A DNA stretch of 58,149 nucleotides from positions 1 through 58,149 of the IMG/VR virus record IMGVR_UViG_3300049597_000678; one strand, written 5' to 3'. The number at the start of each line of letters is the position of its first letter. Position 1 is the stretch's first letter. Origin of the DNA: a virus. The notes under the pieces were generated by a model. That model ran no database searches. It was not told the DNA's origin and saw only the letters and a list, made by a program, of their open reading frames with translations. This document shows positions 8,256-46,685 of the stretch, piece after piece. The position numbers were made by a program, and so were the translations under genes.

Positions 8256-10274
8256 ATGAAAGATTTCGTAAATAGTGTGTTACACGAATTGCAAACTAAT
8301 CCGGAAGTTAACTCAAATCAATTAATCGGACTTGTTATAGAATCTGCAAATAAATCTATCCAAACCGGAGAAAGATATGAAGTGATATATGAACAGGTAA
8401 AAAGAGGACTAATTGAAGTTAATAAACATGTTAAGAGTAACTCAGTTAAAAATATATTAGATCAATTTAGAAAAATAGATTTTAAACCAGAATCTAAATT
8501 AAAAGAATTTGCTAAAATAGCTAACTTAGGAGGAAAATTAAAAGGGATTAAGGAATCTACCGCGTATTCTCATCCAATGATTGCATATAAAGTAGATGAA
8601 TATTTAAGTCGAATTAATTCTGGAACTCCGGAATTTACTCTATATCCTTCTTTCATTCAAGATTTTAAACAGCATTCTGTTGAATCTTCTGTTGCCAATG
8701 CAGTTAAATCAGTAAGTAAAATAGTAGAATCAAACTTAGCAGATTTTGAGATGCTAAACACGATCCAATTAATGGAATCTTACAATTCATCAGGTATGTA
8801 TGCTAACATTATTCCAGACCTTACTGATATGTTGTTGGAGAATACTTACACATCAGATATTATTAACTTTAAGTATGGGCAAACTGGATTACCTATGATA
8901 ACGGGTCTAGTTAATTCTCTTAAGTTGATAGAGTCTAAATTAGATGATACTTTTAATTTGGGAATTGGCGATTCTACTACTACTGTTAGAAATGCAATTG
9001 CTCCTGCTATTAAAAGTAGTAAGACATCGGTTTTAACTTATATGGACAATAGATTCATTAGAGTTACTGAATCAAACAATTTAGATGGTAGTGAAGTTGA
9101 AGTATTCGTTAAAAAAGGAGGATATAGTATTTCTGAAATTGATCCTAATTGGGTTAAAGAAAATCATTCAGATTTCTATTCTTTTTGCGAATCTTTTGCA
9201 TATTTAGGATTCAAAGAAATGGGTCTATATGAAGGTATTGAAACTTCTTCTATTAGAGGATTTAAATTAGGCCTTGTTCCAAATCAAAATAAAGAATTGG
9301 ATTTATATTTAAATGAATCAAAGGTTCAAAACGTTCATAATATTAATTTAACTGAGGCTCTTGCCCTAGTTGATGATCGAACTAAGAGAGCAGTTAAAAC
9401 AGTATTTGAAAATATCAGATCAGTATTTAATTTTGAATTTATCAAGAATATCAAGAATGACATTACCTTAGCTGAATCTACCGTATTTAATTTAGGTAAA
9501 AACTATTTCTTGTGCCAAAAGCCAAATGTAGCTGAAAGAATTTGGGATCCAGTTGATGAGGCTAAATTATATGAACATTTTGCTACTAACTTTAATTATG
9601 ACATCAGCTCAATATTTAAAACTAAAGTTAATGAATCTTTTAAAAATAAAGAGGCAATTGAATTTAGAAAAAGAGAAATATTAGAAAGCGTTGAAAAATT
9701 AGAAGCAACTGTTAAAAAATTAGACGTTACCATTAATTCTGATGATGTTGACATCTCTGATATTTCTAGATTAGAAGAATTAAAAGAATCTATTGAAGGT
9801 ACTATTGAATCCTTAAAATTAGAATATATTGATACTGATCTATTAAAAAGAAGAGTAAACGAAAAAAAGAAGATAGATCAAGACGGAGACGGAGATAATG
9901 ACTGGGATGACGTTAAGATTGCTAGAATGAAAGCATCAGCAGAGGCTGCTAAGTCTAAAAAAAAAAAGGAAAAAAAGTTAAATGAAGAAGCTGAGGGATT
10001 TGGCCTATCTAGCGAAGGTCAAGTAACTGGCTCAACTCAAGTGTACTATCTATCAGGAACCGAAGTTCCTATGGGAGATAAAGCTAAACTTAAATTATCT
10101 AAAGACGGATCTGGCTCACCTATGATGCACAGCGAAGGCGTTTATGTAGTTGAAATTATAGAAGCACTACCTGAATTTCCATTTGGACCTGGAGAAGCAT
10201 GGATCCACCAGGCAAAGAAGGTAGACGGAGACAACAAATGGTATTTAACGAGCAGCGAAGGAGCTGGAGAATAA
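8256..10274 (+). CDS. large helical late protein with Ca-site-like loop
   Basis: A 672 aa protein, strongly helical, starting MKDFVNSVLHEL, which fits loosely the F-x(4-6)-L-x-E leader seen on other late proteins. Many internal L/V-x-E steps (LYE, LNE, VNE) occur. Around residues 545-555 DQDGDGDNDWDD resembles an EF-hand or dockerin calcium loop. It is followed by a Lys/Ala-rich helix with a KSKKKKEKKLNE stretch and a small C-terminal globular domain (about residues 590-672). A prohead core or internal virion protein would fit. It is transcribed from its own late promoter and ended by a strong terminator. Confidence 0.55.
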   Translation: MKDFVNSVLHELQTNPEVNSNQLIGLVIESANKSIQTGERYEVIYEQVKRGLIEVNKHVKSNSVKNILDQFRKIDFKPESKLKEFAKIANLGGKLKGIKESTAYSHPMIAYKVDEYLSRINSGTPEFTLYPSFIQDFKQHSVESSVANAVKSVSKIVESNLADFEMLNTIQLMESYNSSGMYANIIPDLTDMLLENTYTSDIINFKYGQTGLPMITGLVNSLKLIESKLDDTFNLGIGDSTTTVRNAIAPAIKSSKTSVLTYMDNRFIRVTESNNLDGSEVEVFVKKGGYSISEIDPNWVKENHSDFYSFCESFAYLGFKEMGLYEGIETSSIRGFKLGLVPNQNKELDLYLNESKVQNVHNINLTEALALVDDRTKRAVKTVFENIRSVFNFEFIKNIKNDITLAESTVFNLGKNYFLCQKPNVAERIWDPVDEAKLYEHFATNFNYDISSIFKTKVNESFKNKEAIEFRKREILESVEKLEATVKKLDVTINSDDVDISDISRLEELKESIEGTIESLKLEYIDTDLLKRRVNEKKKIDQDGDGDNDWDDVKIARMKASAEAAKSKKKKEKKLNEEAEGFGLSSEGQVTGSTQVYYLSGTEVPMGDKAKLKLSKDGSGSPMMHSEGVYVVEIIEALPEFPFGPGEAWIHQAKKVDGDNKWYLTSSEGAGE

Positions 10275-10295
10275 TTAACATTCACATACATTACT

Positions 10296-10326
10296 AAAGG
10301 GCAAATATTTTATTTGCCCTTTTTTA
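10296..10326 (+). terminator. intrinsic terminator
   Basis: Hairpin AAAGGGCAAATA / TATTTGCCCTTT followed by a T run, just after the 8256-10274 gene. Confidence 0.85.
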
Positions 10327-10353
10327 TTTTAATTTAAATCTTAGTATATTTAA
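10321..10353 (+). promoter_or_regulatory. early-type promoter of the glucosyltransferase operon
   Basis: TATATTTA at 10345-10352 matches the -7 element of the early cassettes, with T-rich sequence 24 bases upstream. No late motif precedes this operon, which suits a DNA-modification gene needed before late transcription. Confidence 0.4.
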
Positions 10354-10379
10354 TTTAGTATAATAGAATAAAATTAGAT

Positions 10380-10664
10380 ATGTCAGAAAAAGAACAAGAG
10401 GAGAGTCTATGTCAAAGAGCACATCGCATCGTATTTGACCGAACAGAAGAAACAGATCGAATGTATGGCCCTTTCTCAGAAGGAATGGATAGAGCTGCTG
10501 CAATATTCACCGCAAGTACCGGAATTAAAATAGAAGGTAGACACATGTATTTAGCAATGGTTGCCCTTAAATTATCTAGAGAAAGCTATAATCACAAATC
10601 TGATAATTTATTAGACGCAATAGCATATTTACAAGGATTAGAAAATTATGAAAATAAAAAATAA
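10380..10664 (+). CDS. DUF1599/DUF6378-like protein, DNA-modification partner
   Basis: A 94 aa all-helical protein with the pattern R-x(4)-TDRMYGPFSEG and a C-terminal LSRE-x(4)-HKSDNLLDAIAYL segment. This recalls small phage proteins of the DUF6378/DUF1599 (nucleotide-modification-associated, MazG-like helical) type. Acidic and His residues in the last helices could bind metal. Its stop codon abuts the start of the beta-glucosyltransferase gene, so the two form an operon and a role in modified-nucleotide metabolism is inferred. The family match is by memory of the motif. Confidence 0.55.
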   Translation: MSEKEQEESLCQRAHRIVFDRTEETDRMYGPFSEGMDRAAAIFTASTGIKIEGRHMYLAMVALKLSRESYNHKSDNLLDAIAYLQGLENYENKK

Positions 10665-11985: not shown

Positions 11986-13938
11986 ATGCGTCATATACAG
12001 CCTTATGCAAATGATTTTATATTCGAATCAAATAATTTAGATAAATATTTTCCGGGCTTACCTGCTCTATTATATAGAGCGTCCAATGTTGATATAATAT
12101 TAGAAGAGGGTAGAAATTTAAATCATATTGAATCCGTTATTCCAGAAGATATTCTACTTGAAGCTGAATTAAATATGCTTCTTCATGAAGGATCAGCTGC
12201 AGTTACTAATTATCATAAAAATCTAGCGATTGGCAAAAACGTATTAGTTGAAAGCCTGGCTAATTCTATTCCGAAAGAGATAAAAGAAGCCTTTAATAAA
12301 TTACAAAGAGAATTTAAAAAACTAAATAAAAGTCAGGTAAATAAAATATTTGAAGAGGCTGAGGCTAAATTAAATGCATCAGGCATGGATATCCCAACTG
12401 ATTTTAAAGGAAAAGACGCGGCATTAAATGTATCCGGAATGGATATCCCAACTGATGCCGATGATGTTTCATCTGAATTCGAAAAAGATTTCCAAGACGT
12501 CATGAAAGGCATTGAATCAAATCACGACTTTGCTGCTCAAGTTCAACCTGGAGAGAGACCTATATTATCTATTTTAAAAAATTTATGGAATGCATTAACA
12601 GAAGGTGGAAGTGCTATCGGAGTATTCCAATTTATATTAGATATAGTTGGCCTAGTAGGTAGCTTTTTTGAACCTATTGGAATGGTTGCTGATGCAATCA
12701 ACGCTATCATCTATATGGTTAGAGGAAAATGGATGCTTGCTATAATCTGTGTAATTGCTGCAATAATTCCATTAGGTGGAGATATTATTAAAGGATTCTT
12801 TAAAGCAGGAACTAAGGCAGCTAAGCCGGTTATGGACATTGGCACCGTATACTTCTCAGCTGCAGGTAGAGCAACAGTCGGTTCAGCTACAATTTCTAAG
12901 GAAGTAGTTGAACTGGCGGCCAAAGCCTCTCCGGATAGTATTAAGGCTCTTAATTATATCGGAGCAAGTACAGGTCCTGCGGTTACTGGATTTATGAAAT
13001 ACGTAAAAGGTTTCTTTGATAAGTTTTTAGCATCAGTAGTTGGATGGATTCCTTTCATTGGTAAGCCGCTAAGGTCTTTCTTTGAAGGAATTGGAAATAT
13101 AATTGCTCAATTTGCAGGTAAGGCTACTAATTTTGCAAATGATATTCCTCAAATAACAGCACAGGCACAGGCTAAGGTGCTAGATGATTTCTTTGCTGCA
13201 ACTGCAGTTCAAGGTGCGGAAATTACAGCAAAGGGAGATAAATTAGTTGTTAAGAATGCTAACGGAATCGTGGAGCTACCTGGAAATGTATTGAAGCATT
13301 CTGATATGTTGGCTAGCCGATATGGTAATCAACTATCTAACAATATATTAAAGCAGGTAGATAACAACGTTGCCGCTTTTTATACTTCAATGTCAAATGT
13401 TATTGGAAAAACAAGTAGTCAATATGGAAACCTTCAGAGATTTGGTAGAGGGGCAGTTAATACCTTTGTATTTACTAAAAAATTGCCTCTATTCATAGGT
13501 AAACAGGTTTTAAAATGGATTTCAGGAGATCCTACTCAGCAATTTACGGATTCCGAATATGAGGCATGGGGAACTGCTGCCTTAAGTGATATGGCTCGTC
13601 AAAGAAGAGATAGGAACTTGGAAGAAAACCCAGATGCGTTTTATGATGTTCCAGTATTCGATGGATTAGAGGACGATGAATTCACTAGAGTTGGAACTAA
13701 AGTCTTAAATGACTATGCTGAGAAATTTAATCTTCCAAGCATAGGCATGGTTGGTTACTATACTCGTGGAGAAAAGGATAAATTACCAGAGGATGTAGAG
13801 AAATTCTACAATTCATGCTATGCTGATAGAGTAGGAAGTGGAATGTTACAGGATATGGAAAATTTTAGAGACGAAACTGGTATATTTGAATCTAAGCGTT
13901 CAGCTGGGATGAAGTATATTAAACCTTTTATTATTTAA
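11986..13938 (+). CDS. large hydrophobic late protein with pre-toxin-like segment
   Basis: A 650 aa protein. The N-terminus MRHIQPYANDFIFES fits the leader pattern, with a predicted cut after FIFE. Residues 125-160 hold two copies of LN[AV]SGMDIPTD. Residues about 200-290 form a Gly-rich hydrophobic block: ILDIVGLVGSFFEP, then VADAINAIIYMVRGKWMLA, then IPLGGD and FKAGTKAAK. That order resembles the hydrophobic pre-toxin region of polymorphic toxins (DxxGxxPxxG, NxxxYxxxGxxxxA, PxxGD). A second hydrophobic helix lies near 355-365. No C-terminal toxin domain is recognised. A capsid-packaged membrane-inserting protein is inferred. Confidence 0.55.
   Translation: MRHIQPYANDFIFESNNLDKYFPGLPALLYRASNVDIILEEGRNLNHIESVIPEDILLEAELNMLLHEGSAAVTNYHKNLAIGKNVLVESLANSIPKEIKEAFNKLQREFKKLNKSQVNKIFEEAEAKLNASGMDIPTDFKGKDAALNVSGMDIPTDADDVSSEFEKDFQDVMKGIESNHDFAAQVQPGERPILSILKNLWNALTEGGSAIGVFQFILDIVGLVGSFFEPIGMVADAINAIIYMVRGKWMLAIICVIAAIIPLGGDIIKGFFKAGTKAAKPVMDIGTVYFSAAGRATVGSATISKEVVELAAKASPDSIKALNYIGASTGPAVTGFMKYVKGFFDKFLASVVGWIPFIGKPLRSFFEGIGNIIAQFAGKATNFANDIPQITAQAQAKVLDDFFAATAVQGAEITAKGDKLVVKNANGIVELPGNVLKHSDMLASRYGNQLSNNILKQVDNNVAAFYTSMSNVIGKTSSQYGNLQRFGRGAVNTFVFTKKLPLFIGKQVLKWISGDPTQQFTDSEYEAWGTAALSDMARQRRDRNLEENPDAFYDVPVFDGLEDDEFTRVGTKVLNDYAEKFNLPSIGMVGYYTRGEKDKLPEDVEKFYNSCYADRVGSGMLQDMENFRDETGIFESKRSAGMKYIKPFII
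12367..12456 (+). repeat. in-gene direct repeat encoding LNxSGMDIPTD
   Basis: Two copies about 54 bases apart encode LN-A/V-SGMDIPTD, with third-base differences between copies. Confidence 0.75.
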
Positions 13939-14417
13939 CTAATTCGATCTAATATAATTAATTGTTCCCTGTGTATTAATTCATATGCCTTCATGATAGG
14001 AACAAAGCCTGCCCAATCAATTTCATGTAATTGAAGTTGTTCTTTCGGAACTCGATCTTCAATCATACCTAATTGTCGAGGATCTTTAATATTTAGATAG
14101 AAATATATTAATTGATGGCTTAGTCTATTTCCTTTATAAATATCAATTACATCAGGTGAAGGATTTAAATCTGATGCTTCTATGATTATACCTGTTTCTT
14201 CTCTAAGTTCCCTAACTGCGGCATCAATAGGTTCTTCTCCTTCTTCTATTTTTCCCTTAGGAATTCCAAGAGCACTCTTTCTCCAACTAGCTCCAGTTGG
14301 GTGAACTAATAATATCTTACCTTCCCAGGATATCGCAACCCCTGCGGTATTTCTTCTAGCTGGACCAAATGCCATGTCTAGAGAAGATGAGCTATATTCA
14401 TCAAATCCCTTTATCAT
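13935..14417 (-). CDS. Nudix hydrolase with late-protein leader
   Basis: A 160 aa protein with a perfect Nudix box: Gly55, then Glu61, then Arg69-Glu70-Leu71-x-Glu73-Glu74-x-Gly76 (GX5EX7REUXEEXGU). Such enzymes hydrolyse nucleoside diphosphate-X compounds; ILLVHP and GIPKGK are typical of small RppH- or MutT-like members, but the substrate is not known. The extra N-terminus MIKGFDEYSSSS matches that of the first gene of the operon (MIKSFDQYSSQF), so both seem to share a leader, though without a clear Glu cut site. It is the last gene of a leftward late operon, overlapping the bS21 gene by 17 bases and convergent with the 11986 gene. Confidence 0.85.
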   Translation of the reverse strand: MIKGFDEYSSSSLDMAFGPARRNTAGVAISWEGKILLVHPTGASWRKSALGIPKGKIEEGEEPIDAAVRELREETGIIIEASDLNPSPDVIDIYKGNRLSHQLIYFYLNIKDPRQLGMIEDRVPKEQLQLHEIDWAGFVPIMKAYELIHREQLIILDRIS

Positions 14418-14586
14418 ATCTATTCTTGTATTTAGCTCGATTTATTTCTTCTCGTCTCTTAACTGACTTCTTTTTAAATGTTTTTCTCTCCTTAAGCTCT
14501 TTAATTGTGCTTAATTTATCAACCTTTTGTCGATATTCCTTTAGCGCATATTCAATTTTCTTATTACCAATTGGAATAACTATCAT
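14401..14586 (-). CDS. rpsU: ribosomal protein bS21 homologue
   Basis: A 61 aa, very basic protein with the bS21 pattern: IEYALKEYRQKVDKL, then a KELKERKTFKKKSVKRREE core and a basic tail. It is close in length and layout to Bacteroidetes bS21, which binds the 30S platform by the 16S 3' end. In this phylum bS21 helps hide the anti-Shine-Dalgarno. The gene is the middle one of a leftward late operon, overlapping its upstream neighbour by 4 bases and the Nudix gene by 17. A phage copy could replace host bS21 late in infection. Confidence 0.85.
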   Translation of the reverse strand: MIVIPIGNKKIEYALKEYRQKVDKLSTIKELKERKTFKKKSVKRREEINRAKYKNRYDKGI

Positions 14587-15434
14587 AAATATTTTGAATA
14601 ATTTAAAGTATGTTTAGATTTAATTAGAGCAGAATCATAAAACTTTCTTTTGTAATATGATTTAGTGTGCTCCTCATTAATTTTATTTTTAACCCAATTA
14701 GGAAGTCGACTCTTATAGAAATCTCGATAAATAGACTCATATAATAATTTAGATTCATGAGGATTTAAATCTAAATTTCGGTCAATTGATTCTACAAATA
14801 TTTTTCCATTAATAGATTCAATTATATTTACATTATATACGTCTAAATTAAATTTCTTATTTATGGATTCACATATATTTTCTAGATCTTTAGAATATTG
14901 AAATCCGGTTAATTCTACGTCTAATGGAAATTTATTAATCCATTCAACTACACTAATTGGATTACCTTTAAATCCTAAAACTTTAAATCTGGTTCTAGCA
15001 ACTGGATTCTCTCTAAATTTAGAATATATCTTTTCTGCATTCCTTAAAGATCCAATTGATTTATGTTCGTCTTTAAAATTTTTACCTATTGCAGTTATTG
15101 GAAAAGTCAATGATTTTACATTTCTAATGCTATCCACTTCGCTTGGCAAATATCCAAGATCTTTAAATGATTCTAAAACTGATTCCTGATTTGGAAGCAT
15201 TGTAGAATTGTATTTATGAGTTAGGCTCTCATTTATAATTTGAGTGGTCTCATTAAAGGTATCAGTGATAATAATTGGAAAGTCTATTGCAGCCTCCATT
15301 AAATCAAACTTATTCTTTATAACTTTAAAATAGGAATGATTAAAATTTTCACTCGTGGCTATTCCAATCTTATTTAAGAAATTAGAAGGATCCGAAGAGA
15401 ATTGAGACGAATACTGATCGAAGCTCTTAATCAT
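14583..15434 (-). CDS. late hypothetical protein sharing leader with Nudix protein
   Basis: A 283 aa protein of unknown family, the first gene of the leftward operon with bS21 and Nudix. The start MIKSFDQYSSQFSS parallels the Nudix N-terminus. The body is alpha/beta without membrane segments, and the C-terminus is basic. It is read from a late promoter at 15451-15467 that is back to back with one for the 15495 gene. Confidence 0.6.
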   Translation of the reverse strand: MIKSFDQYSSQFSSDPSNFLNKIGIATSENFNHSYFKVIKNKFDLMEAAIDFPIIITDTFNETTQIINESLTHKYNSTMLPNQESVLESFKDLGYLPSEVDSIRNVKSLTFPITAIGKNFKDEHKSIGSLRNAEKIYSKFRENPVARTRFKVLGFKGNPISVVEWINKFPLDVELTGFQYSKDLENICESINKKFNLDVYNVNIIESINGKIFVESIDRNLDLNPHESKLLYESIYRDFYKSRLPNWVKNKINEEHTKSYYKRKFYDSALIKSKHTLNYSKYL

Positions 15435-15494: not shown

Positions 15495-16592
15495 ATGAAT
15501 TCATTTAGCACATGGCAACAATTAAACGAAGGCTTATTCAACCCAGCAAATAAAGGAAAAGAGGTCATGCTTACTCCGGACGGAAGAAAGCAAATTGTTA
15601 AATATAAAGTTCAAGGAGATAATAAGTTTTTAATAAAATTAATTAAAAATGCAAGTATTATCGACGAAGGAGGAAATCTAACTAAGACGGGTGCTTCTAA
15701 AATGTTTGAATTTATTAATAATCAATTTGAGATTACTGATGTAATTGGAACATTAAGTGACGCTTGGTTTAAAGATAAAATTTTAATTTACACAGTTAAG
15801 AAGGATACTCAATACTCGGAAGGGGAAGGAGAAAAGGGAAGAGAAAAGGTTCAATTTACCGTAGCAAATAGAGCAGATTTTCCAAAGCTTCCACCTGACG
15901 CTAAGTTTGTAAATTCGGCAATTGCCGAGACCGCGGGATCTGAAGAAAATGCAGCTGTTGTTACTCAAATTGTTACAGATAATAAGGAAACTGTCGTTAA
16001 GGATGATACTAATGAGAATCCAGAGGAAATAAGACAGGAAGAAACTCAAGATGTTGAAGTAGAAGAAACTCAAGATGATGCTCTTATTGGAAAGAAATTT
16101 AGATATTCCATGAGAACTAATGGAAAACTATATCTAATGGAGTTTATGAATAGTGGAGCTCTACAGGCTGATATAATTGGAGAAAGTAATCCGAACGGAG
16201 TAGTTAGTTATGAAAATAATGAATCAGGAGGAACCATCAATTGGACAACTGATATTGATGATACGCAATCAAGCGTATCCTGGCTTAAAAATTGGGGATC
16301 AGGCACTCTATTTACAGATCAAGAAATCACTAATAAAGTTGATAGAGAATTTTTTCTTAAAATATTCACAGATGAAGAATATAGAAATAAGATCATTGCG
16401 GATTATGAAGCAGAGTGGGGAGGTTCAGAAATGACCGTTGAGAATCTAAGAAAGATGCTTTATTACAAGGACAATACTAGGATATTCCCTGAAGCAGGTA
16501 GTGTTGCAAGTAACGAACCTTCAGCAGAAGAAAAGGATTTACCTAGTGGATCCTACGGTGGAGGAGGAACTTATACAGGTCAAATCATTTAA
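15495..16592 (+). CDS. late acidic protein with LNE leader
   Basis: A 365 aa acidic protein. The N-terminus MNSFSTWQQLNE is a short form of the shared leader with a predicted cut after Glu12. A Glu/Asp-rich linker (about residues 170-195, EETQDVEVEETQDD) separates an N-terminal domain from a C-terminal beta-rich domain (about 198-290). The end is Gly/Ser-rich (GSYGGGGTYTG). No enzyme family is recognised; an internal virion protein is inferred from the leader. Confidence 0.6.
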   Translation: MNSFSTWQQLNEGLFNPANKGKEVMLTPDGRKQIVKYKVQGDNKFLIKLIKNASIIDEGGNLTKTGASKMFEFINNQFEITDVIGTLSDAWFKDKILIYTVKKDTQYSEGEGEKGREKVQFTVANRADFPKLPPDAKFVNSAIAETAGSEENAAVVTQIVTDNKETVVKDDTNENPEEIRQEETQDVEVEETQDDALIGKKFRYSMRTNGKLYLMEFMNSGALQADIIGESNPNGVVSYENNESGGTINWTTDIDDTQSSVSWLKNWGSGTLFTDQEITNKVDREFFLKIFTDEEYRNKIIADYEAEWGGSEMTVENLRKMLYYKDNTRIFPEAGSVASNEPSAEEKDLPSGSYGGGGTYTGQII

Positions 16593-16609: not shown

Positions 16610-18184
16610 ATGTACAACCCGAAATTATACATGAATATTAAAAATTATGGGAATTATATTGCTGAAGCAAGCGCTGTCTTGTCAGAGGAATTGAACCCTA
16701 GATTAAAGCAATATCTAGAGGATGATCCTTTTCTTGAATATTTAGCAACTAAGTTTTCTTCTCTTGAATCTGGAGAAACATATGAATTAACTGATCTTCC
16801 AAAATCAGAGTATGGTCTTCGAGAAGAGGATAATATTTGGGTAAAAGTAGATAAGTCTGATCCTAAAATTCCTAAATTCATGATGTGGATTATGAATGAT
16901 GAGTACCTATACGGTGGAATAGATTTCAACTTAGCTGCAACTATATTATATGAAGCAGGTAACGTAGGAAGTGCTGTTGGATACGTTGGAAATTTAATAG
17001 GCGGTTTATTCGGTAAAGGGGATCCCGGAGATTCTGGAACTGATGAAGATACTGTAGTGGCAGTTTGTGGAGCAATGGCTGCAATTGCAGCTGAAAAATC
17101 AGTTGATCCTAAATTATATTATGATAAGCTAGCAGAGGCATTCAATCAAAAATACGGAAGCTTAACTGATTTTTTAGAAACTGAATTTTCAGGTAGAGCA
17201 GAATCGGCAGCATTAGCTGCATTTAGACAACCAATTGACTCTTCAGTTTCTAGAGGTTTAAATCTTGGAAGTATTTTACTTGATATCGGACTTACTATTG
17301 TTACATTTGGAGGTGGAACCGTAGTAGCAAGTGCTTTAAGAGGAGCTGGAGCTGCCGCTAAATCTACTAGAATAGGAGCCGGGGTTGTAAACGTAGGAAG
17401 TAAACTTCTCAAAGGACCTGCAGCAATTGCAGCTAGATTTGGAGGATGGGTAGGACTAAGTGCTGCGCAAAAAACAACTTATTTAGGATCTGCGGTTAAA
17501 GTTGGAGAAGAAATAAGCTATATAACTCGAACTGGTAAAAATGCAGGAGCTGCAAATGCATGTAAAATAATAGACATAACTGAAAACGGAGTTCAATTAC
17601 AAAACGTGGCTAAAGGAAATACTTTTATGGCAAGTCTAGATGATTTTATATTAGGAGCTCCTGCAGCAACAGGTAATCGTATTTTAGATGCAGCTGGACT
17701 TACAGCTACTGCAGCTGGACTTGCATTAGCTACTAAAAAGACATCAGATATAGTTGGAGCATCTTCAAGTGATGTAAACGCAGACGGCGCAAATTGGGCA
17801 GAAAAGGGAGCTGAGATTATGGGCTGGTATGATACACTAGCCGCTGATCCAAATCAATATATGGCATCTTTAGGAGGATCCGACGCAGCTGGATTGGCTC
17901 AAGCAATATTAGATTTAAAGAAAGGTTCTGGATTATTTGGAAATACTACCGATCAAGAAGAACTAGCAATGGCTCTTATTATATTAAGCTTAACTCCAGA
18001 AGGAGCAAAGCAGGTAAAAGATGAATATGCTAAACTAGACAATGTTCCGGTATATGCAGTAATCGACGACGAATTAGGAGGAGATATGGGTCTCTTTGCT
18101 AAATCTTACTGGTCAGCTTGTACTGGAGAAGGAAACATGACAGGGCCAATTAAAGGAATCCTTACTAAGATTAGAAAAAAATAA
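16610..18184 (+). CDS. hydrophobic late protein with T4-like YIAE leader
   Basis: A 524 aa protein. Residues 13-21 (YGNYIAEA) nearly repeat the T4 internal-protein leader (YQEFIAEA). The rest is rich in Ala and Gly. Hydrophobic stretches occur near 120-140 (VGSAVGYVGNLIGGLFG) and 220-245 (LGSILLDIGLTIVTFGGGTVVASAL), with another Ala-rich helix near 360-375. It lies between two other leader-bearing proteins and resembles the 11986 product in composition. A packaged membrane-active protein is inferred; no family name is assigned. Confidence 0.6.
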   Translation: MYNPKLYMNIKNYGNYIAEASAVLSEELNPRLKQYLEDDPFLEYLATKFSSLESGETYELTDLPKSEYGLREEDNIWVKVDKSDPKIPKFMMWIMNDEYLYGGIDFNLAATILYEAGNVGSAVGYVGNLIGGLFGKGDPGDSGTDEDTVVAVCGAMAAIAAEKSVDPKLYYDKLAEAFNQKYGSLTDFLETEFSGRAESAALAAFRQPIDSSVSRGLNLGSILLDIGLTIVTFGGGTVVASALRGAGAAAKSTRIGAGVVNVGSKLLKGPAAIAARFGGWVGLSAAQKTTYLGSAVKVGEEISYITRTGKNAGAANACKIIDITENGVQLQNVAKGNTFMASLDDFILGAPAATGNRILDAAGLTATAAGLALATKKTSDIVGASSSDVNADGANWAEKGAEIMGWYDTLAADPNQYMASLGGSDAAGLAQAILDLKKGSGLFGNTTDQEELAMALIILSLTPEGAKQVKDEYAKLDNVPVYAVIDDELGGDMGLFAKSYWSACTGEGNMTGPIKGILTKIRKK

Positions 18185-34862: not shown

Positions 34863-35705
34863 ATGAATTCTGGACGTATTTTAAATTTTAATTCTTGGAA
34901 AATTAAAGCCCTCAATGAAAACATCGAAGACGAAGTGGTACAGGATCAGTTAGCACAAGGAGAATTAATGGATCCTGATATGGGACCCAGTAAAGGATGC
35001 GATAATTGGTCCAGTACGGTAACAACTGCAAACACTCCATATCAAACTGGAGTGGTATCATCAGTTTGGAATGGATCCGGAAAACCCAAGATAACTATAG
35101 ATAAAGCTGATAAGGATGGATTTGTCCTAACTTATTCTGGAGCGCCAAGTGGATCGATATTAATTCATGGAAAATGCGGAGGTGGAGATACTATACATCA
35201 GGCTTGCATTGTTTTAGAAAGAGAATTAAATAAGCATTTTAAATGGTTAGCAAAAGATGGAATCTTAGTTAAGCCAGATCATATCGGAATTAAGTTAGAT
35301 GGACCTGTTTCTGAGGGAGCCGGAAAAATGAGATTGACTATGACTATTCCTCTTCTTCCAGCAACTGAGACAGATGCAATTACTAACTTTAAAAGAAGAG
35401 GAGGTTGGGGACATCCTCAATTAGCTGGATTTGGAGAAATGAAAACTGAAGCATCTACTAAGAGTAGCAAAGGATGTGACGGCGTACACACTTATACCTA
35501 TCCATCTCAATACCAATCAGATCAAAGCCAATGGTCAAAAGCAAAACTTACAGAGCATTTTATATTCTGGAGAGATTTAGCTGGCGCTGGATATGTAAAG
35601 AAAGCGACAGATAACTCAATTGCTCCTGAAATTAATAATGATATTGATAATACTAGAGTAGATAGTCAGTATTTAGCACCTAAAATTGACTTGAATAATA
35701 ACTAA
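34863..35705 (+). CDS. late protein with LNE leader
   Basis: A 280 aa protein. MNSGRILNFNSWKIKALNE is the leader, with a cut after Glu19. After an acidic stretch comes a beta-rich domain with three KGCD or KCGG Cys sites, recalling a metal or disulphide site. The C-terminus is polar. No family is recognised. Confidence 0.6.
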   Translation: MNSGRILNFNSWKIKALNENIEDEVVQDQLAQGELMDPDMGPSKGCDNWSSTVTTANTPYQTGVVSSVWNGSGKPKITIDKADKDGFVLTYSGAPSGSILIHGKCGGGDTIHQACIVLERELNKHFKWLAKDGILVKPDHIGIKLDGPVSEGAGKMRLTMTIPLLPATETDAITNFKRRGGWGHPQLAGFGEMKTEASTKSSKGCDGVHTYTYPSQYQSDQSQWSKAKLTEHFIFWRDLAGAGYVKKATDNSIAPEINNDIDNTRVDSQYLAPKIDLNNN

Positions 35706-36119: not shown

Positions 36120-37775
36120 TTAATTATCATCGTCAGATATAACATCCTTCTGTTTCTCCGAAGATATAAATCTATCTTTGCCAATAGTAATTTTATTTCC
36201 AGATTCAGTCTCGATAGTTATCTTACTTCCTTCTATAGATAAAACAGTTCCCGATTTAACTATTTTATCGCTAATGTTATCCTGATCGTCTCTACCTTTA
36301 TATTTTATTTTATTTCCTTTTGATAGATCTTCAAATGCAATAGTAGAAGATCCTAATCCGGTTATCTTTTTAAATTTACTTGGAATCGCTTTTGCAATGC
36401 TCGATGCATTAAATGTTATTTTATATCGATATATTGGAAGATCACCCTCTGCCTTACTGTTTCCTAAAATTTTATCTACAATAGGAGTATTTTTAACAGG
36501 AGCACCGGAAGGGGTTTTACTAACTATTGAATATGCCATATTTACTCCGGTCGAAGGATTTATCTTTTCTATCTTCCATAATATTTCAATTGCTCCCTTT
36601 TGAATTCTTGATCCAAGTGCAGTATATAGGTCAGTTGCAACCTCATTTCCTCTTCTCCATGCTCTCCATTGATTTCCAAGAGAAGTTTTATCGATTTTAA
36701 AAGTCTCATCAGTTAGCTTAGTATTATTTGGACCGACCGGTTCTCCAGTACCATTTCCAGATGTTGCAATGCCATTCCAGGTTGGATTAGCAATTGAAGT
36801 TAATTGAAGTTTAGTTATTATTTCATTCGGCTGAAGATCGCTAATTATCTGCTTAATTAATTCAGATATATCTGGATGTTCGGGATTTATTACTTCTCCC
36901 TCTTCATCATAGTCAAACGCCATTTCTTTCCAAGGAATTAAAACTCCTTTAGTAGATTCTTTTTCTCCAGGACCCTGTTCTACCCCAGTATTAGATTCTC
37001 CTCCCGGACCTTTAGTACTAAATATGTAGAGTGAACCTGTTTCTTTTTTTCGAGCAGCGTCTTGAATACTAGTACTGATCCAAAATGTATTAACTCCTGC
37101 ATAGCCTATTCGACCACTTAAATCAGAATATTGAGTATATGAACCGTTTACCCAATTCATTAAATTTTCAGTATTTAATCTTCCACATAAAAGATAAGGT
37201 TTAACTAAATTAAGCTCAGTGCCTGTTTTACTATTTATAGCTCCGTCAGTACCTATCTTCGCGTCAACATAAGCTGAGCCGTCTTTGCTAAATAATTTAA
37301 ATGATTTATCGTCATATTCAGATTTTAAATCCAAGGAGTCAATAAGCTTAGGATCCTTTTTTAAGATATCTGCTAAATTTTCAATGCCGACTGAATTTCC
37401 AATACCCGCTAAAATTAATTTAAATATATTGAGCTTATACTCTGCATCATTCTTAGTGTCTTTCAATGCTCCGCCATATAAAAATACTGGAGCCGGTATT
37501 GAATCTATTACTCTAACTCCTTTTTCATACATCGTCTGATTCTCCTCCGCCGTTATATTAAGAGAATCTCCGAAACCTGAAATATCAAATATTTTACCAG
37601 TTTCCTTGTCTACTGGAAGTTCCGCAGGAAGAGTCACTCCGGTTTGAGGAAGAACTGCTTCGTATAATTTAATTAATTTAGACTCTAATATTCTTTGAGA
37701 TTGATTAAAATTTCTACCAGCAGATTCATATACTTTAAACCATTCTCTAAATGGTAAAATTTTTTGATTCTTCAT
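36120..37775 (-). CDS. late protein with VYES leader, paralogue of 38434-40203 product
   Basis: A 551 aa protein. MKNQKILPFREWFKVYES is the leader, followed by AGRNFNQSQRILES, almost the same as in the 589 aa paralogue. Other shared parts are WRAWRRGNE/WLGWKRGEE, IYRYKITF/MYRYKISW and the C-terminal small barrel with KGNKIKYKGRD, ending in the identical SDDDN. The middle diverges. There is no enzyme motif. It is probably an abundant internal virion protein with a structural or delivery role. Confidence 0.65.
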   Translation of the reverse strand: MKNQKILPFREWFKVYESAGRNFNQSQRILESKLIKLYEAVLPQTGVTLPAELPVDKETGKIFDISGFGDSLNITAEENQTMYEKGVRVIDSIPAPVFLYGGALKDTKNDAEYKLNIFKLILAGIGNSVGIENLADILKKDPKLIDSLDLKSEYDDKSFKLFSKDGSAYVDAKIGTDGAINSKTGTELNLVKPYLLCGRLNTENLMNWVNGSYTQYSDLSGRIGYAGVNTFWISTSIQDAARKKETGSLYIFSTKGPGGESNTGVEQGPGEKESTKGVLIPWKEMAFDYDEEGEVINPEHPDISELIKQIISDLQPNEIITKLQLTSIANPTWNGIATSGNGTGEPVGPNNTKLTDETFKIDKTSLGNQWRAWRRGNEVATDLYTALGSRIQKGAIEILWKIEKINPSTGVNMAYSIVSKTPSGAPVKNTPIVDKILGNSKAEGDLPIYRYKITFNASSIAKAIPSKFKKITGLGSSTIAFEDLSKGNKIKYKGRDDQDNISDKIVKSGTVLSIEGSKITIETESGNKITIGKDRFISSEKQKDVISDDDN

Positions 37776-38433: not shown

Positions 38434-40203
38434 TTAATTATCGTCGTCAGATATAGACTTTTCATTTTTACCAGTTTTATGAATTCGTTCTTGAGGTATA
38501 TATAATTCTTTTCCTGAATCACTCATAACATATACCTTCCCAGACTCGACTTTAACCACTTCTTTTTTAGGATATGGCCTTAGCTTTTTATCAATTACCT
38601 TCTCTCCGCCTCTAGAATCCGACGATACCTTATAATAAGAAATCCAATCCCCTTTTGCTAGGTCTCCGTATCCAAGTGTAGATTTACCTAGGGCACCGAA
38701 TGTTAATTTCTGCATCCATCCTTGTTCTTTATCGGTCATTGCTTGATAATTCCAAGAAATTTTATAACGATACATTTTTTTACCACCTGCAGTAATCTTA
38801 GTTTTAGCACCGAAAAATTGAGTCTCTGTTTTTTCTTTTGGAGCAACGCCAGTTCCTAAAACTTCCCAGGACATATTTCTACCATCTCCTAATCCATTTT
38901 TACTTACGTTCCATTTAACTTCTATGTTCTCAGCTAATATGCGTTTATCACCTAGCATCTCAACTAATATTCTTTTAAACTCTTCTCCTCTTTTCCAACC
39001 TAACCAATTGTTTTTTTCTTCTGGAGTTGCAGGTGATGCAACAAGAGATGCTTTATCAGCAGCTGTAATTTTTCCTCCACTTGGATCTCCAGATCCTCCG
39101 GTTGGATTTTCTGCAAGGGGTTTACCTCCCCAATCAGGACTTGCGCTACTGAAGATAGTCATTTTAGTAATTTGCTGACCTTCTTCAATTGCATCTCTAA
39201 TATCGGTAGCTGCCTGTAAAATAGCTGCATAATTTGCATCAACTTTAACTCTCTCTCCTTTATCTGTTACACCATCTGTCCAAGATCCTGCATCAAAACC
39301 GATTCTAATTGAACCCTTTAACGCAGGTTTTCCTTGAGTTTGGGTTACAATCTCTTTACTACCAGCAGCTTCAGTTTCCATTTTCGCTGAAGAATAAAAA
39401 TATAAAATTGAATCTTCTGTAGAAATTCCAGCCTTAGCCTCATTTCCAAGCTGTAATACGTTTTTATCGTCTACGCATTTTGCTAAATCAGAATATTGAG
39501 TACCGTTTCCTGTTCCAAAATTTATAATATTAAACGTATTTACATAGTTACATACTTCTCGCATAGTATTACTGTATACGTTTTTTTCTGAGTTAAGTAC
39601 CTGTCCGTCTTGTTCAATATTATGACTACAGCTAATTTGGTCCGCGTAATTGCTGCCGTATAATTGAAATTCATCAACTTGTTCACACTTAAGTCCAAGT
39701 TGATCAACTCGTTCCTGTGCAGTAGCCGATTTGGTTCCTTCAAGGAATTGTTTACCTAGATCTTTAACTCCATGCCATCTACCTATACCAGCTATAATAA
39801 CTTTAAATACATCCATTAAGGCATCTTGATTTCCAGATTTATTCCAGTTAGCTCCGCTTACCCAGTATGGACCTGCATTAATATATAATCTAGGAACCTT
39901 CTTAAGTCCAATTGTCGTTTGCATGATTTCATTAAATGCTTGAGATGTTTCAGGGTCGATCCAACCCCATGCAGGTGTAACACTACTATCGGATATGTCA
40001 TATATAGCATTACCACGCTGAATGGTTACTAATCCACTTCCGACTCCATCTTGTGCTAAATCTGGATTTTTTTCTTCGAGTATTCTCTGCAATCCTCTAT
40101 AAGATCTGGATTCCAGAATCTGTTGAGATTTTTTAAAATTTCGACCAGCTTGCTCATAAACTTTAAACCAGCTTCCGAAAGGTAAAATTTTTGGATCTTT
40201 CAT
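38434..40203 (-). CDS. late protein with VYE leader, paralogue of 36120-37775 product
   Basis: A 589 aa protein that starts MKDPKILPFGSWFKVYEQ and continues AGRNFKKSQQILES, nearly as its paralogue. It has three internal Cys (near 174, 191 and 213) and the shared C-terminal barrel with KGDWISYYKV, ending SISDDDN. It has its own late promoter. Divergence in the middle with conserved ends suggests that both ends are needed for targeting or assembly. Confidence 0.65.
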   Translation of the reverse strand: MKDPKILPFGSWFKVYEQAGRNFKKSQQILESRSYRGLQRILEEKNPDLAQDGVGSGLVTIQRGNAIYDISDSSVTPAWGWIDPETSQAFNEIMQTTIGLKKVPRLYINAGPYWVSGANWNKSGNQDALMDVFKVIIAGIGRWHGVKDLGKQFLEGTKSATAQERVDQLGLKCEQVDEFQLYGSNYADQISCSHNIEQDGQVLNSEKNVYSNTMREVCNYVNTFNIINFGTGNGTQYSDLAKCVDDKNVLQLGNEAKAGISTEDSILYFYSSAKMETEAAGSKEIVTQTQGKPALKGSIRIGFDAGSWTDGVTDKGERVKVDANYAAILQAATDIRDAIEEGQQITKMTIFSSASPDWGGKPLAENPTGGSGDPSGGKITAADKASLVASPATPEEKNNWLGWKRGEEFKRILVEMLGDKRILAENIEVKWNVSKNGLGDGRNMSWEVLGTGVAPKEKTETQFFGAKTKITAGGKKMYRYKISWNYQAMTDKEQGWMQKLTFGALGKSTLGYGDLAKGDWISYYKVSSDSRGGEKVIDKKLRPYPKKEVVKVESGKVYVMSDSGKELYIPQERIHKTGKNEKSISDDDN

Positions 40204-40306: not shown

Positions 40307-41155
40307 TTAAACCGGTCCGGATCCCCAAAATATTTTATAGATCCACAGATCACTGAGTTCCTTGTGTTTAGGCTCTGGTTTTAGGTGCCTGGCATCAGAT
40401 TCAAAATCTTCAATCCTTGCCCCTCCACCAGGAGAAGTAATCCAGTTGAAGTTAATAAAATTATCTCCATAGGTATCGGTCTCCCATTTTACTAATTTTG
40501 CCAGTTCCTTCAATTTATTTTCCTGTGAGGTCTTTTCTTTTTCAGAAACAGCAGGGTCCTCCTTCTTTTTTTGAACATATAATTCTTTACTCGGTGGAGA
40601 AATAACTACTGCTCTGGCACCGTGATCAGTAGCCATTTGCACAAGGGTCTGAATATTAGTTTTTACATATTCAGCAGTATGATCCCCTCCCCAAATATCA
40701 TTGCTACCTCCTAAGATAGTAATGATATCATAGTAGTTAGCCCCTTTTTGAGACAATCGGGTCCTTAAATTATCAATCATCCAGGTAGTACCTTCCCCTC
40801 CTTTAGCAACTCGATCTACGGTTACTCTAGGTTGAGATTGAGAGATATCAGCATTTAATCTTTGGCCTGCCCACCAGCCATAGAATTTTCCGCCAGTTGT
40901 ACTTGCAGTATTACTGTCCCCTACAAATAGGAGATTTAGGACCTTGTCTTGGGCCCGGGTTTCCAGATTTTCTTTTCTCTCCTCAACATTCCCCTTTGTA
41001 AGCTCAACAAATTTACTAAGTTCAGGTCTCTTTACTTGCCAGCCTCCACTTGGTAATTTACGATAGATTGAACCAGGCAAGGTAGGATAGGTATAGTAAC
41101 CGGATCTTTTATCCTCGAATACCCGGTTCCAGTCTTGATATTTTTTAATCCACAT
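40307..41155 (-). CDS. SGNH/GDSL hydrolase with late-protein leader
   Basis: A 282 aa protein. Leader MWIKKYQDWNRVFE. Block I FVGDSN (Ser81 nucleophile), block III GGSND (Asn152) and block V DARH near the C-terminus form the SGNH set (Ser, Gly, Asn, His with Asp three before His). Family members are esterases or lipases, and some remove acetyl groups from polysaccharide or peptidoglycan. It lies 11 bases downstream of an NlpC/P60 gene, so both may act on the cell surface or wall. Confidence 0.85.
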   Translation of the reverse strand: MWIKKYQDWNRVFEDKRSGYYTYPTLPGSIYRKLPSGGWQVKRPELSKFVELTKGNVEERKENLETRAQDKVLNLLFVGDSNTASTTGGKFYGWWAGQRLNADISQSQPRVTVDRVAKGGEGTTWMIDNLRTRLSQKGANYYDIITILGGSNDIWGGDHTAEYVKTNIQTLVQMATDHGARAVVISPPSKELYVQKKKEDPAVSEKEKTSQENKLKELAKLVKWETDTYGDNFINFNWITSPGGGARIEDFESDARHLKPEPKHKELSDLWIYKIFWGSGPV

Positions 41156-41166: not shown

Positions 41167-41748
41167 TTATTTTTTATTAGGATTGGTCCATCTGCCGTAG
41201 CCTCTGATTGGTCCCCACCAGCCTTTGGCTTTTACACCAGTCACTTCCTGAATTCCCTTGGAACTGGAGGCATGGATCATAGTAAAGTCTCCACCTTCAA
41301 CTGCAGAAACAATTCCTACGTGACCTGCACCATTGAATCCAGGATCTGATTTAAAGAACACCAGGTCCCCTGGTTTAAGATCTGTAAATTCAACCTTTAC
41401 TGCCCTCTTCTCCTGACCCGGAGCATGACCTGGAAATCCACTATATAGAGCCGTATCCAGGGTACCATCGGCCTTATTAAACTGACCAGTTGACTTTAGC
41501 ACCCATTTTACAAAGCCGCTACAGTCAAAGCCCGGTGAACTGTTTCCGCTTACCACAGGATCTGTTGAAGCCTTAGGTCTTTGGCCTCCCCACTTATAGG
41601 GCACCCCAATCTGGGACTTAGCGTATTTTAGTACTAGTGATGCTGTGCTAGCCTCAGGACTGGACTCTGGAGTACTCGGATCCCCTGGGATTCCAAACAG
41701 GTCCTCTGATACCTGACCCCATCGTTGATAGTTTTTAATCCATTTCAT
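41167..41748 (-). CDS. NlpC/P60 endopeptidase with late-protein leader
   Basis: A 193 aa protein. Leader MKWIKNYQRWGQVSE, a Pro/Ser linker (20-37), then an NlpC/P60 domain with Cys76 in FDCSGF, His143 in GHVGIV and His159 in MIHAS as the catalytic set. It cuts peptide stems of peptidoglycan. With no signal peptide but a leader, it is more likely a virion enzyme for entry than an exported host-type enzyme. It forms an operon with the SGNH gene. Confidence 0.88.
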   Translation of the reverse strand: MKWIKNYQRWGQVSEDLFGIPGDPSTPESSPEASTASLVLKYAKSQIGVPYKWGGQRPKASTDPVVSGNSSPGFDCSGFVKWVLKSTGQFNKADGTLDTALYSGFPGHAPGQEKRAVKVEFTDLKPGDLVFFKSDPGFNGAGHVGIVSAVEGGDFTMIHASSSKGIQEVTGVKAKGWWGPIRGYGRWTNPNKK

Positions 41749-43449: not shown

Positions 43450-44043
43450 CTATCTGAAACGACCCCTATAGAGACGACTCTCGTTTGTTGGAGGTGTCTG
43501 CTGCTCTATCGGAGATTCAGTACCTGGTAATCCTCCTAGGATCTGGGTTCCTTCTAGATTAATTTTAACCGTGAGCTTGCCACCTTCTACGTTACCAACT
43601 AGCTGAAATACTATTTGCTTGGCGTATTGAGTTACAGCTTTTCCTGGACCAGTTATGACTCTAGGAATATTGACCATTAAATTGCTACTATTAAAAGTTA
43701 TAGTACTGCAGTTGAGAGCAGAATCCCATTTTAAATTTGCAGCATCAATATCAGTAGGGTTCTTGATTAATGACCAGTCTTTCACTGCAATTGTAGTTGC
43801 AGCCATGGATCCGCTAACCACCCGAAATCCTCCTGAAATTTTAAGCTGAAGAGTCTCAGCTTCGCCAAAACTAGTTGATTCAAGCCAGGCTGTCATTGAC
43901 TTGGAATCAGCTTGATTAGCTTTTACTAGATCCTGACCCTGCTTGTCCATAAGACTGATTTCAAGATCTTCGGGTTTTACATTAATCACAGACTCGGTCG
44001 CTTCATTTACGAACTGTCTGAAATTTTTAATAAATCTTGCCAT
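43450..44043 (-). CDS. late protein with VNE leader
   Basis: A 197 aa protein. MARFIKNFRQFVNEA is a compact leader, close in form to T4 MKTYQEFIAEA, with a cut after Glu14. The rest is beta-rich (an Ig- or jelly-roll-like impression), with a proline-rich tail ending in SRLYRGRFR. Family unknown; an internal or decorating virion protein is inferred. Confidence 0.65.
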   Translation of the reverse strand: MARFIKNFRQFVNEATESVINVKPEDLEISLMDKQGQDLVKANQADSKSMTAWLESTSFGEAETLQLKISGGFRVVSGSMAATTIAVKDWSLIKNPTDIDAANLKWDSALNCSTITFNSSNLMVNIPRVITGPGKAVTQYAKQIVFQLVGNVEGGKLTVKINLEGTQILGGLPGTESPIEQQTPPTNESRLYRGRFR

Positions 44044-45199: not shown

Positions 45200-45222
45200 C
45201 GCTCCGCCTGGAGTGTTGACCT
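45200..45222. repeat. 23-bp direct repeat, copy 2
   Basis: The same sequence as 44954-44976. Confidence 0.85.
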
Positions 45223-45458: not shown

Positions 45459-45487
45459 TATATAACAATAACTTAAAACTTAAAGAG

Positions 45488-45628
45488 ATGAGAACGGTAT
45501 TAATTGGTATGGCAGGTATAATAATTACTACTTTTGGAATGTGTTCGCAAATACATGTAATAACAGTAATTGGTTTATTATATATTGGAGCCGCCACCTA
45601 CTGGATAGCTAAAAATACAATTAAATGA
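45488..45628 (+). CDS. 46-residue membrane peptide
   Basis: ATG at 45488 follows the early leader directly. Two short hydrophobic helices (about 5-17 and 23-40). It overlaps the next gene by four bases (ATGA at 45625), which supports translation of both. Confidence 0.6.
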   Translation: MRTVLIGMAGIIITTFGMCSQIHVITVIGLLYIGAATYWIAKNTIK

Positions 45629-45918: not shown

Positions 45919-45936
45919 GAACCAGTATAAGAAGGT

Positions 45937-46152
45937 ATGGCACTAGATGATAACGCAAAACGAGAATTTATTGAAGGTATGGTGGAAGATTTTAAACTTC
46001 AATTGGAAGGTAATAAGATCGATCCTAAAGTATTAGCAGGTCAGGTCAAGTGGGCCTCCGGTCTCTGTAATCGCATTATAACATTGATTCAAAATGGAGA
46101 AGTTACCTTTAACCTTGACGGAACGGGCACACAAACCAAGAAGGTCAAATAA
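45937..46152 (+). CDS. small acidic helical protein
   Basis: A 71 aa cytoplasmic protein of unknown family, the last gene of the 45488-46152 unit, ended by a terminator. Confidence 0.6.
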   Translation: MALDDNAKREFIEGMVEDFKLQLEGNKIDPKVLAGQVKWASGLCNRIITLIQNGEVTFNLDGTGTQTKKVK

Positions 46153-46176
46153 GTTTCCCCCCAACTGTTTGACCGA

Positions 46177-46203
46177 AAAAAAGCCAGCGAAAGCTGGCTT
46201 TTC
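46177..46203. terminator. bidirectional terminator
   Basis: AAAAGCCAGC / GCTGGCTTTT hairpin between convergent genes. Confidence 0.85.
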
Positions 46204-46223
46204 TATTTTATAGATTTTAAGAT

Positions 46224-46685
46224 TTACATCCCCTTAGATCTCCCGCTCGGGTCGATAAATTTTCGGCCAATTCCAGTAAATCTATTATCTTTTTTAGCTT
46301 CAACTTCAAACGGTCTTGGCTCGTCAGACGTTACATATGTATCGTAGAACGATTCTACATCTTCACCTGTCTGATCATGATACCAATCTAACATACTCAT
46401 GATATCATTTGCTTGTCCTCTAAATGTAACCTCAGGATTACCTCCACCTGGACCATATGGAACAAGACCAATAATTTGCAAATCAAATTGTTCGCAAATT
46501 TCATGTAACATTTGTAGAAAATCATTAGCTGATTCAGAAGGATCATATCCCAAATCGATGCTAACTTGCTTTAATCCACCTCTGGATCTTTCCGCTCCGG
46601 CAGGATCTACCATTGAGCGCATATCCTCACCGCCTTCAAATTCTTCGCTTTCACGAATGAACGTAGAAAATTTCTTTACTCTCAT
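46224..46685 (-). CDS. late leader-bearing paralogue of an early protein
   Basis: A 153 aa protein from the ATG at 46685. An upstream in-frame reading would cross promoter sequence and is rejected. The leader MRVKKFSTFIRESEE is followed by an acidic linker and a domain (about 57-125) that matches the early product of 50141-50479: FLQMLHEICEQFDLQIIG with FFEFLQEVIEEFRVEIIG, and NPEVTFRG with WPEITFRG. The domain is small and alpha/beta, of unknown function. It has a late promoter although it lies within the early region. Confidence 0.75.
   Translation of the reverse strand: MRVKKFSTFIRESEEFEGGEDMRSMVDPAGAERSRGGLKQVSIDLGYDPSESANDFLQMLHEICEQFDLQIIGLVPYGPGGGNPEVTFRGQANDIMSMLDWYHDQTGEDVESFYDTYVTSDEPRPFEVEAKKDNRFTGIGRKFIDPSGRSKGM

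Follow-up and report, generated by a model that had tools for sequence, protein, structure and literature searches.

Why should some twenty proteins with unrelated bodies, encoded in one region of a viral genome, begin in nearly the same way? The question is raised by the virus record IMGVR_UViG_3300049597_000678, whose 58,149 bases constitute the window analysed here. A preliminary description of this DNA had drawn attention to an N-terminal leader that recurs on late proteins between positions 8256 and 46685 and resembles the T4 capsid-targeting sequence, which directs internal proteins into the prohead and is cut after a glutamate. The answer favoured here, with a probability of about 0.84 as judged from sequence, is that the leaders are T4-type capsid-targeting propeptides of a set of cargo proteins packaged in the phage head. 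By analogy with T4, we infer that the leader proteins are packaged, cleaved and injected. The pair of aromatic residues at positions i and i+3 would attach the protein to the scaffold core while the prohead is growing, and the [ILVM]-x-E that lies 0-5 residues beyond the pair would be where a prohead protease of the gp21 type cuts, removing the leader as the head matures. Once released, the proteins would remain in the head beside the DNA until their ejection into the host.

Source of the DNA and scoring of the motif

Bases 1-36325 and 39961-58149 of the window are 99.5% identical to a 136.7-kb twin record, gA, which encodes a contractile tail sheath. Both records are evidently incomplete, since capsid, portal and protease genes were not found in gA. 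When the sheath and the protein encoded at 6170-8203 were used as guides in a phage collection, the nearest annotated isolate was Flavobacterium phage MaF61, with 34% identity in the sheath and about 29% in the terminase. The relatives compared were gB (131 kb), gC (176 kb), gD, gE, gF, gH and gI.

Two forms of the motif were scored near the N-terminus: a strict form (aromatic-x-x-aromatic, a spacer of 0 or 2 residues, then [ILVM]xE) and a flexible form, [FYW]xx[FYW]x(0-5)[ILVM]xE. The chance expectation was taken from internal windows of the same proteins, and 200 shuffles of the N-termini served as a second control. Both expressions were drafted after inspection of the gA and gB leaders, and gC to gF and a set of cousin contigs are therefore the cleaner tests, as their N-termini were uninspected when the strict expression was fixed. 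Because many of the proteins are related to each other, the P values for enrichment are too small. Gene starts were kept as called in every gene count; the leader stands at an alternative start in gA_114159 and gD_55288, gE_86260 is probably shorter at its start than called, and no leader is seen upstream of gF_25510.

Enrichment, distribution and conservation

The strict form was found in 13 of the 177 gA proteins, where internal windows predict 1.02 (P 5e-11); the shuffles of these N-termini gave a mean of 1.38 and a maximum of 5. In gB the figures were 20/160 against 0.90 (P 7e-21), with a shuffle mean of 0.84. The motif stands roughly 8-22 times above the internal-window expectation in these two genomes. 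The strict form also exceeded expectation in gC (19/211 against 2.4), gD (9/168 against 1.9), gE (17/171 against 2.3) and gF (6/103 against 0.9), as it did in the close-group loci L004-L024 (19/413 against 2.8, some of the matches coming from one repeated family that does not look like cargo). MaF61 shows no leader enrichment, neither by the strict form (1/195 against 1.09 expected) nor by the flexible one (3/195 against 3.96). Among all proteins of the cousin contigs 90/1306 matched against 48.4, an expectation inflated by scaffold repeats that fill the control; once duplicates were removed and 48 scaffold-type proteins excluded, the count was 85/1078 against 9.9.

The preliminary description had proposed looking for the leader in the rest of the genome and in early genes. 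Across gA the flexible form occurs in 22/177 proteins (2.89 expected), and it is also present in gB (22/160), gC (26/211), gD (8/168), gE (19/171), gF (10/103), gH (15/159, 2.7 expected) and gI (18/162, 2.6 expected). Its distribution within gA is far from uniform: 16 of the 46 cargo-region genes carry it against none of the 57 early-like genes (Fisher P 4e-7), a count that takes in 31259 and misses 46224 owing to its called start. Elsewhere in gA it was seen in 0/18 genes from terminase to baseplate, 1/18 tail genes, and 2/27 and 3/10 genes of two further regions.

Conservation among orthologues points in the same direction. Of 719 reciprocal-best pairs, 65 have the leader in both members, 22 in one and 632 in neither, so that it is shared in 65 of the 87 pairs in which at least one member bears it (P 9e-69; the pairs are not independent). 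Two families judged by eye as non-cargo contribute nine of the 65, and four of the 22 discordant pairs involve gD_55288 or gE_86260. The key positions are kept while their neighbours drift, as in the series FITFINE, YTSYLNE and FHSYLKE at 31-41% identity of the bodies. Grouped by their bodies, the 106 leader proteins of more than 60 residues in six genomes form 63 families. Since about 16 of the 107 flexible-form matches are expected by chance from the internal rates, the leader is spread over roughly 50 cargo families rather than 63. Only two of the 12 leader genes between 24634 and 46224, namely 36120 and 38434, have relatives at E 1e-8 in those close-group loci that were searched, and 24634 has a weaker relative in gC.

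Leader anatomy and the T4 signal

Among the 107 flexible matches the spacer is 0 in 47 and 2 in 29. The hydrophobic position P3 is occupied by L in 43, I in 41, V in 21 and M in 2, and the residue after the glutamate is most often S (30), A (17) or Q (15). A signal-peptide-like hydrophobic core was detected on the Kyte-Doolittle scale in none of the 107 leaders, whose mean net charge is +0.36. In T4, IPII and IPIII begin MKTYQEFIAEA, IPI begins MKTFKEF with ITEA further on, and gp23 has FGSFLTE before AEI. It has been demonstrated by mutation of IPIII that residues 4 and 7 control targeting and residues 8 and 10 control processing, and that Asp at residue 10 retains packaging while blocking the cut (PMC9026906). 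The key positions of the leaders coincide with these targeting and cleavage residues. In addition, the long-form leaders resemble the N-terminus of the major capsid protein of a cousin (FGKWAPIIE).

As in T4 IPI, IPII, IPIII and Alt, the signal is an N-terminal leader of 10-20 residues on unrelated bodies (PMC9026906, PMC3012670 and PMC12373910, in their available parts), in which an aromatic pair is followed by hydrophobic-x-Glu; the long spacer too has its counterpart in T4 IPI. The internal proteins of T-even phages were likewise identified by their leader, according to the part available of PMC12373910, which gives three internal proteins plus Alt for T4 and at least 10 reported for the T-evens. 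Unlike T4, the present genomes contain 22 (gA), 22 (gB) and 26 (gC) matching proteins where 2-4 are expected by chance, the body families number 63 in six genomes (some by chance), and several of the cargos are large enzymes.

Association with a late-promoter-like motif

The T4 late promoter consensus resembles ATAAATA, and this consensus was used for scoring. Thirteen of the 16 main leader genes of the window have such a motif at a distance of 23-31 nt upstream, and the three that lack their own copy (16610, 18197 and 40307) are all directly downstream of another leader gene. The motif is enriched before leader genes, compared with the other genes of the same genome, in gA (14/22 vs 30/155), gB (14/22 vs 25/138), gC (16/26 vs 33/185) and gE (13/19 vs 29/152).

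A different promoter-like block, TATATTTA..TATAACTTAAAA, occurs at 50624, 52726, 54181, 54758, 55342 and 55909 (50624-55935 overall), close before small early-like genes, and is distinct from the ATAAATA of the leader genes. The window also encodes a sigma-70 type factor at 32665-33573 and, by eye, a second one at 51055-51732; the two sigma factors may act at the late and early types of promoter.

Prohead protease, scaffold and capsid

A gp21-type prohead protease, for which the preliminary description had suggested a search, was not found in the incomplete twin, but an S77-type enzyme is present in close relatives. The gC protease matches Pfam S77 (PF03420) with E 1.4e-10 and 41.4 bits against a cut-off of 27, and T4 gp21 (PDB 5jbl) with E 1.7e-4. 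A profile built from six proteases that are more distant also matches 5jbl, with E 7.7e-5; H76, S88, H89 and S131 are invariant in these six relatives, and the gC protein aligns to them. The distant version in MaF61 gave no S77 match at E 1. Of 15 close-group records fetched via a recombination gene, 12 have a Gp23-type major capsid protein and 12 match the protease profile; capsid and protease are also found in 5/5 other records, which were chosen for carrying them. Leaders, protease and T4-type capsid co-occur in gC to gF. The homologues of gA span mainly the right half of gC, and the gC protease and capsid lie in its left half. When 15 MaF61 proteins were used as queries in the related loci, the sheath, terminase, chaperonin and two others matched, and no head-shell proteins did. 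An S77 search over 19 records found by a baseplate-region gene gave no match, a result that is uninformative because no control genome matched and the two longest records, gA and gB, had no head genes in later searches. The record gH carries the protease; it comes from the same sample as gB and, of the records compared, is closest to gB in tetranucleotide composition. The two may therefore belong to a single genome of about 240 kb.

The protease of gC to gF forms the front portion of a protein of 649-661 residues (in gC at 55509-57485, L251:15509-17485), the middle of which contains about 11 tandem 14-residue units, 8-10 of them matching [YF]xx[YH][LIV]xE. This protease-scaffold protein accounts for a large share of the internal short-form motifs of each genome (8/17 in gC, 9/13 in gD, 8/19 in gE and 7/12 in gF), and leaders and repeats share the spacing of the motif positions. 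T4, by contrast, encodes gp21 and gp22 separately. The giant phages LR745206, LR756502 and LR756504 show a similar repeat region. A descent of the leaders from the scaffold repeats was considered and dropped, as a scaffold-repeat profile enriches N-termini weakly (5-9 against 1.0-2.1 expected in gA to gF; 4 against 1.9 in MaF61) and the free positions differ in the cousins.

The preliminary proposal of a T4-type targeting sequence cut after Glu is well supported by several lines of evidence: the key positions, the late-promoter association, the protease and T4-type capsid of relatives, the absence from early-like genes and the conservation in orthologues. Several observations weigh against it. 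Searches with the capsid, portal and protease proteins of six phages gave nothing significant in gA or gB, the window alone being unsearched. MaF61, a distant relative, has a Gp23-type capsid and a protease yet no leader. In gD (1/8 leader genes vs 22/160 others) and gF (4/10 vs 15/93) the late motif shows no significant enrichment, and in four giant-phage stretches 2/104 proteins carry the leader where 3.4 are expected, an expectation that scaffold repeats inflate. At the free positions, leaders are no nearer to repeats than other internal matches are in the cousins (P 0.91); in the close group they are nearer (P 7e-5) but score below background. Finally, leaders favour N-E followed by S or A, and scaffold repeats A-E followed by N or K.

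The sixteen main leader genes and their predicted cargo

All 16 main example genes match the flexible motif, and both [FYW]xx[FYW] and [ILVM]xE are present in 16/16, with the glutamate at residue 12-21, so that the claim of a short leader common to unrelated proteins holds. Their starts agree with those given in the preliminary description, including that of 46224, whose start at 46685 on the minus strand is better than that of the longest open reading frame.

On the plus strand, gene 15495-16592 (365 residues, conserved) begins with MNSFSTWQQLNE at 15495..15530, then G; the late-promoter-like AATAAATA lies before it at 15468-15475, and W7 and E12 of the leader are invariant in an alignment of five orthologues. 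Directly downstream, gene 16610-18184 (524 residues) has MYNPKLYMNIKNYGNYIAE at 16610..16666, then A, and is directly followed by gene 18197-20599 (800 residues) with MNFNLYLNRLYE at 18197..18232, then V. Gene 21302-21655 encodes an acidic protein of 117 residues with MKVKNFSGFMRSKLNE at 21302..21349, then S (late motif 21277-21284), a leader retained in gB and gC. The two remaining plus-strand genes are 24634-25794 (386 residues; MKNFSYLRGFDSFAGRYRLNE at 24634..24696, then M; late motif 24603-24610) and 34863-35705 (280 residues; MNSGRILNFNSWKIKALNE at 34863..34919, then N; late motif 34833-34840).

The other ten are on the minus strand. Gene 25865-28087, an AAA+ ATPase of 740 residues, has MKFLKNFLDYSQMPMFE at 28037..28087, then A (late motif 28107-28114), and gene 29637-30761, a DUF2201_N protein of 374 residues, has MTIIKGFRDWSGQIYE at 30714..30761, then S (late motif 30781-30788). 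Between them, at 28110-29627, sits a gene without a leader that encodes long GQDGQ repeats and has a weak, below-cut-off VWA-like match (E 0.07). Gene 31556-32596 (346 residues) carries MNRYIKSYKGWKLVNE at 32549..32596, then Q (late motif 32613-32620), and gene 33565-34194 (209 residues) carries MNSSVASYDRWWKKVYE at 34144..34194, then S (late motif 34212-34219). Genes 36120-37775 (551 residues; MKNQKILPFREWFKVYE at 37725..37775, then S; late motif 37796-37803) and 38434-40203 (589 residues; MKDPKILPFGSWFKVYE at 40153..40203, then Q; late motif 40222-40229) encode homologues, and in the leader of the latter W12 and E17 are invariant among three homologues. A GDSL lipase of 282 residues (gene 40307-41155; MWIKKYQDWNRVFE at 41114..41155, then D) is directly downstream of an NlpC/P60 protein of 193 residues (gene 41167-41748; MKWIKNYQRWGQVSE at 41704..41748, then D; late motif 41769-41776). 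The last two are gene 43450-44043 (197 residues; MARFIKNFRQFVNE at 44002..44043, then A; late motif 44059-44066) and gene 46224-46685 (153 residues from the corrected start; MRVKKFSTFIRE at 46650..46685, then S; late motif 46706-46713).

Besides the four domain-bearing products just named, the 18197 protein combines peptidase M23, peptidoglycan-binding and endolysin-type domains. The predicted mixture of enzymes therefore stands, with a multidomain peptidoglycan hydrolase, an NlpC/P60 protein, a GDSL lipase, an AAA+ ATPase and a DUF2201_N protein. The membrane-active part of the same prediction is not supported, as transmembrane-like stretches occur in 2/22 leader proteins of gA vs 16/155 others. 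The remaining 11 of the 16 products gave no Pfam match over the cut-off, nor did any of 10 proteins of gB and gC (nine matches to the regular expression and one leader-like by eye). Predicted structures were poor, with a predicted local distance difference test score (pLDDT) of 61 for 15495 and 42 for 38434, and a fold search with 15495 gave a best E of 0.035.

Six further genes (8256, 11986, 13935, 14583, 21744 and 31259) had been listed as weaker forms, and most of them fail the motif. Gene 8256 has no match and, by eye, none in its orthologues, and 11986 and 21744 match only in part; none of these three was accepted as a leader gene. Gene 31259 has both the motif and a late motif, yet its product is short and contains a hydrophobic stretch, and the match may be due to chance. 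Two genes on the minus strand keep the targeting half only. The NUDIX protein encoded at 13935..14417 begins MIKGFDEY without [ILVM]xE, and its orthologues in gB and gC carry a complete leader. The 283-residue protein encoded at 14583..15434 begins MIKSFDQY; 8 of its 10 listed homologues have a similar N-terminus without, by eye, the [ILVM]xE end, and the other two are called shorter. The 14583 product is predicted from these termini to be packaged but uncut.

Two other genes were noted. The one at window 10665-11675 matches a phage beta-glucosyltransferase family (phrog_7922, E 2.4e-17), a match that may point to modified DNA. At gB 9913-12590 (L033) a recombinase-like gene seems, by eye, to be in two pieces, the downstream one bearing intein-like residues at the junction.

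Alternative explanations

The leader could be an uncut docking tag for another compartment of the virion, such as the tail tube, in the manner proposed for the payload signals of contractile injection systems, an explanation that we consider improbable. The contractile sheath of gA fits with it, as do 13935 and 14583 (8/10 listed homologues), which keep the aromatic pair without [ILVM]xE and so indicate that docking alone can be under selection. However, T4 too has a targeted-but-uncut variant, D10 (PMC9026906), and a docking tag accounts poorly for a glutamate that is invariant in both orthologue alignments (E12 and E17), for the mostly small or polar residue after it in the 107 matches, and for the concentration of the same pattern in a protease-fused head scaffold.

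About equally improbable is that the leader proteins are core or scaffold components of the prohead, cut and expelled during maturation instead of being delivered as effectors. There is a precedent in T4 gp22 and gp67, which act in head assembly and are cut into fragments by gp21 (according to the available part of PMC9026906), and the small, acidic 21302 protein looks by eye like gp67. Enzyme-type domains in 5 of the 16 main products argue against it, and so does the lack of a relative at E 1e-8, in the searched loci of the close group, for 10 of the 12 leader genes at 24.6-46.7 kb, unlike structural core proteins. For a few proteins such as 21302 this reading may nevertheless apply.

An amphipathic membrane anchor or export signal is still harder to sustain: cell-wall enzymes are among the cargo and the leaders contain aromatic and basic residues, but they have no hydrophobic core (0/107) and hardly any net charge (+0.36), transmembrane-like stretches are not in excess, and the conserved Glu is left unexplained. 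Composition bias or chance in N-termini rich in K, N and F may explain the 16 or so expected matches, such as those in families that look by eye like topoisomerases and recombinases, and can be dismissed as a general cause in view of the shuffles (1.38 vs 13 in gA, 0.84 vs 20 in gB), the 0/57 early-like genes and the orthologue conservation.

Related systems and implications

Capsid-targeting propeptides, the explanation retained, have parallels outside the T-even phages. In the isolate Sphingomonas phage PAU (JQ362498, e.g. 110719-113735) one leader likewise occurs on many proteins of the head-gene region: a pattern of the MKT..L[YF]E type is matched by 15 of the 292 proteins called, 12 of them at 100-121 kb around the head genes, and some variants occur besides. 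The bearers include gp152, annotated as scaffolding, and gp154, an internal capsid protein. Unlike that of the window clade, the PAU leader varies very little and has no aromatic pair (0 strict matches). SPN3US and phiKZ also have N-terminal propeptides on inner-head proteins that are removed by the prohead protease after x-x-E; these are mostly long, several of more than 100 residues, with AxE or SxE motifs (PMC5694885, in the part available), and the cuts predicted here fall outside that type, at residues 12-21 after [ILVM]xE. In phage P1 the N-terminal 30 residues of DarB, a 250-kDa anti-restriction protein, send a reporter into the capsid, a precedent that makes large cargo feasible; unlike the leaders of the window clade, P1 Dar N-termini gave no consensus by BLAST (both from the accessible text of PMC9024508).

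The capsid-targeting literature searched, judged by titles, concerns T4, P1, P22, SPN3US and T4-based tools, together with the evolution of T4 counter-defence, and in that material no such expansion was recognised. The main text of a study of jumbo phages with predicted Bacteroidota hosts does not contain the words N-terminal, packaged or injected (PMC12619734). The trick of capsid targeting is therefore known, and its scale and the breadth of the cargo appear to be new in the literature searched. It is possible, at somewhat less than even odds, that an uncultured T4-like clade has turned T4 targeting into a general effector-loading system. A protease-fused scaffold with about 11 docking repeats of the form [YF]xxY[LIV]xE would be matched by one detachable copy of this form on each cargo, and many cargo genes would be single cassettes with their own late promoter, allowing fast turnover of the repertoire under a constant tag. 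The 14583 family would be docked and left uncut, and some 20-30 proteins, identifiable from the sequence alone, would be injected per genome.

If the explanation is true, the leader would constitute a readable address tag for the injected proteins of uncultured phages, most of which have no recognised domain, and would yield a shortlist of anti-defence and take-over candidates. Tag recognition would also be tied to the scaffold repeat, so that the docking of T4-type cargo on the prohead core would become testable.

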